The position numbers were made by a program, and so were the translations under genes. Shown piece after piece: positions 57,986-63,923 of a stretch of DNA of 64,000 nucleotides. The notes beneath the pieces were generated by a model that was not told the DNA's origin, ran no database searches, and saw nothing but the letters and a program-made list of their open reading frames with translations. Source of the DNA: an uncultured Pirellula sp. (GTDB lineage Bacteria; Planctomycetota; Planctomycetia; Pirellulales; Pirellulaceae); assembly GCA_903892355.1 (NCBI GenBank), contig CAITIE010000108.1, positions 62,001-126,000 on the forward strand, given 5' to 3'. Within the stretch, counting starts at the first letter, position 1. Every line of letters begins with the position of its first letter.

Positions 57986-58063
57986 GACTCGATCCTATGC
58001 AGGGAAATTCTCGGCATCCACGCGGCTAGACGTGTTTTCGGGTAATAGAATCCTGGCGAGAGA

Positions 58064-59161
58064 TCAGTCCGAGAGCGACTGCAGGTACGATAATGCATCC
58101 TCGAGCGTCGTGGTTTCGATGCCGCTGACACGGCCAGCACGATCGCATTTCCCCAATAGGATCAATTCGTCATAGCTCTCGTTCTCGCGAAGTCGACGAT
58201 GGGCGCGAGCGCCGATCGAGCCATCGATGATTTTGTGGGTGTCCATATGGTGTGCGATGAGCCAAGCGGTACGGTCGGTAATAAATCCGTCGAGAGCTTC
58301 GAGTCCTGCATCGACGTGATTCTTGGGATCGATCCCCTTGCCGACATCATGCAGCAACGCTGCCAATAGGAACTCCTCATCGTAAGGAATAGCATCGCAT
58401 GCGTGATCATAGACTTGAAGCGAGTGGTACAAAACATCACCCTCGGGATGGTATTTCGGATGCTGCTTGACGTTTTCGAGCGGTACAAGCAACGAGTAAA
58501 AAACGCGATAGGGGTCCCCTTGGACCTCCATTGATGCGAGTTCTTGTTCGACTTGAACGTCTGGGTACACCTCCGCCAGGAAATCCTCAAGTTGAGGTAG
58601 CGTGGCACCTTCGATCCTCTTGCCGGTGATGGAACTCTTGAATCCGTAGCTTCTTAGATTCTCTCGATAAATGGTTAGTTCGACGTCGAAAGCCTCACGG
58701 AGATGAACATGCGTGTAGGTTGCGTTCTCGCCATTCTTGCGGACTTGCTTGCGTTCGACCTCGTACGGTAGGCCTTCGCAGTCCAAGCATCCCAGGACGA
58801 CCTCGATGCTATCCGAGAAAATATGGATATCGATGTCCGACCCTGTTCTGACATGCCCCGTATAGACGCTGCCAATCAATCGAGGATGGAATTTGCTGAG
58901 AAGTCTCATAACACGAAGCGCCGTCAGTCGCATATCCCGGAGCGCATTGAGACGCGACTCTCCTTCGAGGAGCCGAGCGAACGACTGGACAGCTTCGCGG
59001 ATCTCGGTATTCGAAGGCAAATCGGCGGGTTTCACCCAGCCTTTGCACAATTGCCGAGCCGCTTTGTTTTTCGCTTGGAAGTATTCGGACTCTTGTCGAA
59101 AATACATCAAACGCGCCGCTTCATGAGCGATCGCGCGCCGCAATTTAGAAAAATTCATCAT
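58064..59161 (-). CDS. Nucleotidyltransferase-HD domain fusion protein
   Basis: This 365-residue protein joins a pol-beta-type nucleotidyltransferase fold to an HD phosphohydrolase. The NT motif is IGSVYTGHVRTGSDIDIHIF (about residues 96-115), with catalytic Asp109 and Asp111 and a third acidic residue in FDVELTIY (about 158-165). The HD half has YHSLQVYDHACD (246) and LLHDVGKGIDPKNH (His271, Asp272), then HHMDTHK. An N-terminal helical domain (residues 1-90) is extra. CCA-adding enzymes and GlnD combine these folds in other ways; the RDLTINA motif of CCA enzymes is absent. Its substrate is unknown. ATG 59161 is my start. Confidence 0.82.
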   Translation of the reverse strand: MMNFSKLRRAIAHEAARLMYFRQESEYFQAKNKAARQLCKGWVKPADLPSNTEIREAVQSFARLLEGESRLNALRDMRLTALRVMRLLSKFHPRLIGSVYTGHVRTGSDIDIHIFSDSIEVVLGCLDCEGLPYEVERKQVRKNGENATYTHVHLREAFDVELTIYRENLRSYGFKSSITGKRIEGATLPQLEDFLAEVYPDVQVEQELASMEVQGDPYRVFYSLLVPLENVKQHPKYHPEGDVLYHSLQVYDHACDAIPYDEEFLLAALLHDVGKGIDPKNHVDAGLEALDGFITDRTAWLIAHHMDTHKIIDGSIGARAHRRLRENESYDELILLGKCDRAGRVSGIETTTLEDALSYLQSLSD

Positions 59162-59316
59162 GGCACCGCAGCAGTGGCTGGATGGTCGGTGCATTGCATT
59201 CCGAGAACTAGGGATCAGGCCCTGACAACTGTTGTCCTCTGCCTAATCTCTACACCGACAAGCATACGCTTTATCGGTGCGGTTTGTCCAGTCGTCTTCG
59301 AGCGAGCTAGATCGAG

Positions 59317-62600: not shown

Positions 62601-63923
62601 ATGCTTGACGAATTGAAATCGGCGAAGTTTTTTCGGACTCAACAACGCCTCCGAGGAGCGCATACCGTCGAGATGGCGTTTATGCTGCCGATCGTATTCG
62701 TCTTGTTTCTGGGTGGAATCGAGTTTGCAAGATTGCAGATTATCAAACATCTTGCCGACAACGCGTCGTACGAGGCGGCTCGCGCGGTCATGGTCCCCGG
62801 GGCAACCGTTGCCGAGGCGCAGGCGATTGCCAACAACGTGATGAAAATCGGTGGAATCACGGGAGCCACGGTAACGGTTTCGCCTAATCCGATTCTGGAG
62901 ACGACTCAGAGCATCAACGTCAGTGTCTCGATCCCCACGTCAAATAATCTTTGGTCGGCGGCAACGTTTTCTAAGAACCTTTCGATCAGTGCAAATACAT
63001 TGCTGGTCACCGAACGAGGGCCTGCGTCCCAAGTAAGCGCCATCGCGAGCTTGCCACCACCTCCGGTTGTCGTTCCTACCACCACGACGCCGACCACGAC
63101 AACGTCGACAACCACGGCTTCGACGACGACAACGAAACCGACAACGACAACAACCACTCCAACAACCACGGCTTCGACGACGACAACGAAACCGACAACG
63201 ACAACAACCACTCCAACAACCACGACTACTGCGACGACAACGAAGCCGACGACAACAACTACCACAACCACTCCAACAACCACGACCACTGCGACGACAA
63301 CGAAGCCGACGACGACAACGCCGACGACTACCACAACCACTCCGCCTGCAACGACGACGACAACTTCGACGACGACAACGACCACCAAGACTACAACGAC
63401 CGCAGGTACGGGGTCGGGCACCGGAACAGGAACAGGTGTCGGGTCAGGAACTGGTTCTGGTACAGGGACCGGCACCGGTTCGGGAACTGGCTCAGGCACT
63501 GGATCTGGAACCGGTTCTGGGACAGGATCCGGGACAACCATAGCCTCCGGAACTGGTAAGACTGGAACTACCACTACGACGACTGGTGGTGGCGGAGGTG
63601 GTGGCAGCACGGGTACTGGCTCCACGGGATCAACAACAACCTCGACAGCTCCAAAGACCACCACAACCACTACGGCGCCAACGACAACGACGACCTCGAC
63701 GGCGTCTACGACGACGACGGCTCCCAAAACAACCACAACAACGACCACCACAACGCCGACGACGATTCAACCACCCAAGACCACGACAACAACTGCACCT
63801 ACGACCACGACAACAACGACACCCAAGACCACGACGACAACCACGACGCCGACAACAACCCCAACGACGCCGCCGAAAACAACAACCACGACCTCACTAC
63901 CACCCCCGCCGCCACTTTTGTGA
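62601..63923 (+). CDS. TadE-like protein with a long Thr-rich mucin-like tail
   Basis: Residues 1-150 are a TadE domain: HTVEMAFMLPIVFVLFLGGI, then EFARLQIIKHLADNASYEAA (about 21-60). Residues 155-440 are low complexity: long Thr runs with K-P-T-T-T units, a Gly-Thr/Ser-Gly stretch (about 270-310) and a poly-Pro end (SLPPPPPLL). Such a tail is typical of O-glycosylated or wall-spanning linkers. GAGGAG lies 11 bp before the ATG. The DNA is repeated at 54-60 bp and 6 bp scales, so the tail length probably varies. It is the last gene before a strong terminator. Confidence 0.88.
   Translation: MLDELKSAKFFRTQQRLRGAHTVEMAFMLPIVFVLFLGGIEFARLQIIKHLADNASYEAARAVMVPGATVAEAQAIANNVMKIGGITGATVTVSPNPILETTQSINVSVSIPTSNNLWSAATFSKNLSISANTLLVTERGPASQVSAIASLPPPPVVVPTTTTPTTTTSTTTASTTTTKPTTTTTTPTTTASTTTTKPTTTTTTPTTTTTATTTKPTTTTTTTTPTTTTTATTTKPTTTTPTTTTTTPPATTTTTSTTTTTTKTTTTAGTGSGTGTGTGVGSGTGSGTGTGTGSGTGSGTGSGTGSGTGSGTTIASGTGKTGTTTTTTGGGGGGGSTGTGSTGSTTTSTAPKTTTTTTAPTTTTTSTASTTTTAPKTTTTTTTTTPTTIQPPKTTTTTAPTTTTTTTPKTTTTTTTPTTTPTTPPKTTTTTSLPPPPPLL
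63100..63900. repeat. Imperfect tandem repeats encoding the Thr-rich tail
   Basis: At 63100-63330 about four units of 54-60 bp encode TTTTKPTTTTTTPTTT-like text; at 63410-63540 short 6-bp g-g-t-a/t-c units encode GTGSGTG. Because units are multiples of three, the two other frames on this strand are also open for long stretches; these are not genes. Confidence 0.85.

Follow-up and report, generated by a model that had tools for sequence, protein, structure and literature searches.

The window, the whole 64,000-nucleotide stretch of planctomycete DNA that was analysed, carries a minus-strand gene whose product joins a helical N-terminal domain to a nucleotidyltransferase (NT) and an HD domain. 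Translation of 58064-59161 on that strand gives a 365-residue protein in which GSVYTGHVRTGSDIDIH and HDVGKG are unbroken, and places the GS motif at residues 97-98, DID at 109-111 and HD at 271-272. The stop-free minus-strand stretch is 365 codons long, compared with a maximum of 200 and a mean of 99 in 200 shuffles of 58001-59200, and the reading frame is conserved, since near full-length relatives of 42-98% identity are present in many planctomycete genomes. The gene start is likely to be the second Met (59158). When the window's own genome was searched with the NT-HD protein, the single match was the protein itself. Fractions in the feature list refer to rows of an alignment of 34 members of the family.

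58064..59161, minus strand: whole gene, N-helical, NT and HD protein, 365 codons plus stop
58898..59161, minus strand: helical N-terminal domain, residues 1-88 (about); four predicted helices in the model
58562..58897, minus strand: nucleotidyltransferase core, residues 89-200; weak Pfam DUF4269/NTP_transf_2/Polbeta matches and a Cid1/TUT-like fold
58868..58873, minus strand: GS motif, G97-S98; 34/34, and by translation
58829..58837, minus strand: D109-I110-D111, with the two catalytic Asp; 34/34
58679..58681, minus strand: Glu161, presumed third carboxylate; 34/34, model strand E159-165
58067..58516, minus strand: HD domain, residues 216-365; PF01966, hhalign match to CCA-enzyme HD, PhnZ fold match
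58424..58426, minus strand: H246, HD metal ligand 1; 34/34
58346..58351, minus strand: H271-D272, HD dyad; H271 33/34, D272 34/34
58316..58318, minus strand: H282, HD metal ligand; 33/34
58247..58249, minus strand: H305, HD metal ligand; 33/34
58142..58144, minus strand: D340, HD metal ligand; 33/34

In an AlphaFold2 model of the protein (mean pLDDT 90.7, pTM 0.70) the N-part is helical, an NT fold comes next, and the HD domain, made entirely of helices, begins near residue 217. The preliminary description, in which the gene was read as an NT-HD fusion with an added helical N-part and with both motifs intact, is upheld in each respect: the frame is real, the confident model displays all three parts, D109 and D111 are invariant (Asp109, proposed there for mutation, is one of the two) and H271-D272 are placed by translation and kept in 33 and 34 of the 34 rows. 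The strand of the gene and the third NT carboxylate, Glu161, were absent from that description. The N-domain helices of the model span residues 4-20, 27-38, 51-66 and 69-87, with the NT strands following, and the last of the four may pack as the first helix of the NT. No Pfam family was listed for the N-domain at E<=0.001, the rows listed in both fold searches scarcely cover residues 1-60, and a PDB sequence search with the single protein gave weak matches only, to histidine kinases and Cas10.

Elsewhere in the window, 62601-63923 encodes a TadE-like protein that has a very long low-complexity tail of Thr-rich and Gly/Ser/Thr sequence; it is part of a run of genes from 60908 that look TadE/VWA-like by eye.

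Relationships of the nucleotidyltransferase and HD halves

The NT half has the features of a Pol-beta superfamily nucleotidyltransferase, with G97, S98, D109, D111 and E161 identical in 34 of 34 aligned members; Glu161, which lies in ELTxY, is taken as the third carboxylate because of this identity. Pfam matches of the window protein to DUF4269, NTP_transf_2 and Polbeta are all sub-threshold. DUF4269 is matched by all 34 members (best E 2.6e-6), as is, weakly, the MntA_antitoxin model (best E 3.9e-4), for which the window protein scores 12.1 bits against a cut-off of 60. The small nucleotidyltransferases of the DUF4269, NTP_transf_2 and MntA type thus resemble the NT through weak sequence matches in most or all members, but the window protein falls under their cut-offs and their models span an NT alone. 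A fold search with the NT core placed template-independent RNA terminal nucleotidyltransferases at the top (Cid1, Z 9.4, 2.1 A over 86 residues), with further matches to TUT7 and GLD-2, and to PAP and CCA enzymes at Z about 8. Although Cid1, the TUTs and GLD-2 are the best fold matches (Z about 8-9), they are eukaryotic, share about 15% identity and score close to the level of unrelated matches. No single relative of the NT is claimed, because many rows of the fold search tie at Z 7.5-9.4.

The HD domain scores 30.9 bits for PF01966, over the cut-off of 22, and the window protein has the HD-superfamily signature, with the HD dyad and the H...HD...H...H...D ligands. The ligands H246, H271, D272, H282, H305 and D340 are kept in 33 or 34 of the 34 members, the exception being one locus (L029). 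In profile comparison (hhalign) this half aligned with the HD of CCA enzymes at a probability of 99.6 (E 1.5e-24, 134 columns) and with short PhnZ-like HD proteins at 98.1 (E 8.7e-14). Judged by these profiles, the HD half is of the CCA type, closer than to the PhnZ-like group, the one other HD group tested. The NT half, when aligned in the same manner with 19 planctomycete and gammaproteobacterial CCA rows, reached a probability of 3.0; the finding that by sequence only the HD half belongs to the CCA type refines the preliminary description.

In the fold search the HD domain is best matched by PhnZ (4n6w, Z 19.0, 2.2 A over 149 residues) and TmpB (17.1), followed by MIOX (11.8) and most other HD folds at about 8-9.5. 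These two HD oxygenases are thus the closest solved HD folds and have an identical set of six ligands, but they contain no NT, and their YxxE loop is incompletely conserved in the NT-HD family. A YxxE motif is present at 237-240, where Y237 is found in 22 of 34 rows (another residue in 12) and E240 in 33. PMC8177086 assigns a YxxE-type loop to PhnZ/TmpB. The Phn-HD model TIGR03276 was not listed for the window protein; it matches 30 of the 34 members weakly (best E 7.3e-6) and scores 32.2 against a cut-off of 214.6 on the HD protein of a split gammaproteobacterial relative (G060). The six-ligand set is also carried by the hydrolase YqeK, and seems, from sequences judged by eye, to be present in CCA-enzyme HDs.

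The preliminary description held that the protein lacks both the ACT domains of GlnD and the CCA signature, and named a clear placement in either family as the finding that would overturn it. That profile test was run, and no profile puts the protein in either family. The CCA models PRK10885 (24.4 bits, cut-off 451) and TIGR02692 (13.9 bits, cut-off 438.8) and the full-length GlnD models (11.9 and 10.6 bits, cut-offs 631 and 519.4) match the HD part only. Neither ACT nor PolyA_pol (PF01743) is among the families listed for the 34 members, the latter at E<=1, and the protein ends with its HD domain at residue 365, with no C-terminal ACT. Class II CCA tRNA nucleotidyltransferases of the E. coli Cca type likewise have an NT followed by a related HD, with an HPE..H motif and the HD ligands, but the NT here is not PF01743, no PolyA_pol_RNAbd arm is listed and the N-helical domain is extra. 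The genome has a separate PolyA_pol-domain (CCA-type) gene (E 2.2e-36), so the NT-HD protein is probably not its CCA enzyme. GlnD, the PII uridylyltransferase/uridylyl-removing enzyme, has its NT first and then its HD, and this order matches that of the NT-HD protein, but the latter has no ACT and no match to a GlnD NT model, and it is not half as long as the GlnD models. NT-HD proteins as such are already known; what differs here is the kind of NT, the N-domain without a Pfam family and the CCA-type HD. Our literature search recognised no paper on this fusion, the key survey of Burroughs and Aravind (2016) lying outside its coverage.

Distribution, decay and degenerate homologues

A survey of 294 genomes of the phylum gave strong matches (E of about 1e-38 or lower) in 50 of the 52 that belong to the window's class or to a closer group. 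Beyond the class there were six full-length matches and one fragment, and almost everything else was a weak match restricted to the HD region. In a set of 60 genomes that includes the window's own, 29 encode a near full-length protein, with NT residues intact in those scored; by reading of the match listings, 10 others carry a version whose NT is missing or degenerate, and the remaining 21 show no version at all, or just fragments or CCA-type HD matches. Within the window's own genus the full gene is found in 9 of 27 genomes. It is absent or fragmentary in the other 18, some of which are incomplete assemblies, with fragments in at least four (G009, G015, G021, G023), and it therefore seems dispensable in this genus and is apparently being lost. 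In one search the named loci all come from planctomycete records, two of them bins labelled Kuenenia, except for one pseudomonad locus. One planctomycete genome (G059; L022, L057 and L058) contains the family three times, twice at full length and once without the NT.

No plasmid match to the NT-HD protein was found, and the phage search gave no full-length match, only matches at the HD part or nearby, which, where annotated, are to a CCA-tRNA nucleotidyltransferase and a poly(A) polymerase. PADLOC gave no match, and viral contigs scanned with the N+NT alignment yielded no relative.

The neighbourhood of the planctomycete genes is not conserved, the largest shared cluster of neighbours among the loci compared, the family itself aside, comprising 5 loci. 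In one planctomycete sub-lineage (L036, L037, L122) genes that we take to be rplS, trmD and rpsP lie a few kilobases away on the opposite strand. No linkage of the fused genes to RtcB is visible in gene positions, and although RtcB is present in 28 of the 29 genomes whose NT is intact and in 25 of 31 others, this co-occurrence among the 60 genomes is not significant (Fisher p 0.10).

The two active sites tend to be kept or lost together. With 11 catalytic residues scored in 103 rows, both sites are intact in 73 (4 gammaproteobacterial pairs, the rest planctomycete), both are damaged in 19, the HD alone is intact in 10 and the NT alone in 1; a full set of HD ligands accompanies an intact NT in 73 of 74 rows and a lost NT in 10 of 29. 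These counts leave out rows at contig ends or from fragments (L045, L046, L059, L060, L061, L222) and repeats (L065, L076, L081, and L031 and L032, which repeat L003 and L002). Several lineages no longer have the NT or have it in decayed form, and their HD ligands have then often decayed in turn, whilst NT-less proteins keep the N-domain, of which just part was aligned in L204. The joint decay is taken as a pattern only, because the Fisher value of 1.4e-12 ignores relatedness and, with 4 NT and 8 HD changes on the tree, a test by independent pairs is not significant (p 0.5, the pairs being too few).

A degenerate form of the N+NT module is widespread in Gammaproteobacteria. The module matches 176 of 369 genomes of the class, a count that includes two intact pairs (G060, G680). 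Of twenty gammaproteobacterial loci taken, L176 is an intact pair, 16 yielded scored reading frames, and in three (L178, L179, L195) none was left after overlap filtering. D111 is missing in all 16 standalone homologues inspected, no HD partner lies in the stretches read around them, and none of 19 degenerate-homologue loci matched the RNA-repair reference proteins. In most of L177 and L180-L194, PBP1A (Transgly/Transpeptidase) and pilM genes are near the homologue, and most of these control loci share one syntenic site. On sequence this is a conserved gammaproteobacterial pseudo-nucleotidyltransferase near PBP1A/pilM. In the tree the intact gammaproteobacterial, degenerate gammaproteobacterial and planctomycete rows each fall on one side of a branch, with support of 100/99, 100/99 and 88/97, respectively.

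Split relatives in Gammaproteobacteria

In Gammaproteobacteria the N-domain and NT form a separate protein, and at the pseudomonad locus the two halves are separate adjoining genes. With six added by wider searches, seven gammaproteobacterial genomes have an intact NT active site (G060, G500, G680, G951, G1602, G1637 and G1662), and in each the NT gene is immediately preceded, on its own strand, by an HD gene. Four of the seven have an RNA ligase (RtcB or RNA_ligase) within about 7 kb, two of them along with RtcA, slipin and RlaP. At the pseudomonad locus (G060) RtcB, a gene of unknown function, RtcA, a Band_7 protein, the HD protein, the N-helical NT and a CCA enzyme follow one another on one strand and are succeeded on it by two RlaP genes, RtcB2 and PrfH, an arrangement confirmed by Pfam and NCBIfam. 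In G680 the order is Band_7, RtcB, RtcA, RlaP, HD and NT, with RNA_ligase and an HD-AAA_33 kinase further along; downstream of the pair in G1637 are an exonuclease, RNA_ligase and an HD-AAA_33 kinase, and in G1602 RtcB lies some 5 kb off on the opposite strand. No RNA ligase is present in the stretches read around the pairs of G500 and G951, or near that of G1662, where the contig stops inside the HD gene. The association of RNA ligases with split pairs has a Fisher value of 0.002, which ignores relatedness, and the seven intact pairs form one clade, so that they cannot be counted as wholly independent. No plasmid or phage matched the split NT of G060.

A search of domain neighbourhoods, proposed in the preliminary description, has a divided outcome: planctomycetes have no conserved neighbourhood, and RNA-ligase neighbours lie at four of seven split pairs, with none seen for the fused planctomycete genes. 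RlaP, the RNA-ligase-associated Pol-beta NT (PF10127), is likewise an NT of RNA-repair gene clusters and adjoins the split relatives in G060 and G680, but PF10127 does not appear in the list of families that members of the NT-HD family match.

An RNA repair cluster at L114:590-12291, with two RtcB, RtcA, slipin, CCA, two RlaP and PrfH, also holds a 213-residue protein without a Pfam match. At L229:11974-13918 and L176:11667-13682 an RNA_ligase gene adjoins a gene for an HD-AAA_33 P-loop kinase fusion, and the two are probably a second pair for RNA end healing and sealing. A gene divergent to the G951 pair was considered as RNase Z and was not counted, Pfam giving a metallo-beta-lactamase fold with weak tRNase Z similarity.

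Proposed function and its alternatives

The reading that we favour, at a probability of about one half, is a bifunctional enzyme in which RNA 3'-end healing by the HD domain is followed by nucleotide addition by the NT; we infer both activities, their order and the substrate. The CCA-type HD would be a metal-dependent phosphohydrolase that removes a 2',3'-cyclic phosphate or a 2'/3'-phosphate after RNA cleavage or damage, and the NT would add one or a few nucleotides, template-free, to the freed 3'-OH. As it persists in NT-less versions, the helical N-domain may serve as a common scaffold or bind RNA. The substrate is likely to be a damaged tRNA or other structured RNA, on which the enzyme would work alongside the RtcB/CCA pathway without being identical with it. 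According to published work, a CCA enzyme whose HD domain is functional clears 2',3'-cyclic phosphates from the 3' ends of tRNA (PMC10673834, citing Yakunin 2004), RtcA makes such ends (PMC7790460), RtcB ligates them (PMC7824862), and extra NTs in clusters with RtcB and other ligases restore lost nucleotides (PMC6514570, PMC7824862).

This RNA-end reading is favoured by the conserved catalytic residues of both domains, by the CCA-type profile of the HD half, by the terminal nucleotidyltransferases that head the fold matches of the NT, by the complete HD ligands in nearly all NT-intact rows, by the pairing with HD in 7/7 gammaproteobacterial genomes and with an RNA ligase in 4/7, and by the degenerate homologues, which have neither an HD partner nor RNA-repair matches. 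The main points against it are the lack of RtcB linkage in planctomycetes and the PhnZ-like HD fold; the three split pairs without a nearby RNA ligase and the apparent loss of the gene in its own genus also count against it. The gene context of the split relatives allows the possible target, previously put as a different protein or RNA, to be narrowed to RNA. A wider and more tentative proposal is that this unnamed NT-HD family comprises a dedicated RNA 3'-end heal-and-tail enzyme and a scaffold that has turned pseudo-enzyme in several lineages. The HD would open or remove terminal cyclic phosphates and the NT would re-extend or tag the end, so that cleaved tRNAs would be diverted to repair or decay, separately from CCA addition; the pseudo-enzymes would include the widespread gammaproteobacterial pseudo-nucleotidyltransferase encoded beside PBP1A.

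If the protein were a GlnD-like writer and eraser, its NT adding NMP to a regulatory protein and its HD removing it, the domain order would be that of GlnD, and the opposition of the two activities would explain why the sites are found together in 73 of 74 NT-intact rows and tend to disappear as a pair; there is a small chance of this, set against the lack of ACT domains and of a GlnD NT model match, the lack of a conserved partner gene as a possible target, and the RNA repair genes around the split relatives. The weak MntA_antitoxin and DUF4269 matches of all members would fit a small-molecule or antitoxin-type NT, whether of the MNT/MntA kind, an aminoglycoside NT or a nucleotide-signal enzyme, and small NTs of this clan have varied substrates. 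This seems unlikely, however, as no HEPN toxin partner was seen at the inspected loci, PADLOC and plasmids gave no match and phages no full-length one, and near universality in Planctomycetia is unlike a mobile toxin-antitoxin gene. It is quite unlikely that the protein is mainly a non-catalytic scaffold with both active sites as relics: many lineages do retain the N-domain without NT or HD residues, and the standalone gammaproteobacterial homologues are degenerate but widespread, but all 11 scored catalytic residues are intact in the window protein and in 73 of 103 rows.

The margin by which PhnZ and TmpB exceed other HD folds, the six ligands and the Tyr of YxxE in 22 of 34 rows could point to a mixed-valent diiron oxygenase, with the NT activating or marking its substrate. 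We regard this as highly improbable, given the 12 rows with another residue at 237, the closer CCA-type profile, and the sharing of the six ligands with YqeK and, by eye, with CCA-enzyme HDs. A second CCA-adding or repair enzyme would account for a CCA-type HD with HPEGD..H and for the G060 pair directly preceding a CCA gene, but it is most unlikely, with no PolyA_pol match in 34 members, an NT that hardly aligns with those of CCA enzymes and a separate PolyA_pol-domain protein in the same genome.

The RNA-end reading is directly testable through the split operons and through single-residue predictions (D109, E161, D272). If it is right, a conserved enzyme would be newly added to bacterial RNA repair, and one NT-HD pair could be fused, split, halved or made a pseudo-enzyme. 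It would also account for a gene that is kept across a planctomycete class, together with its N-domain without a Pfam family.
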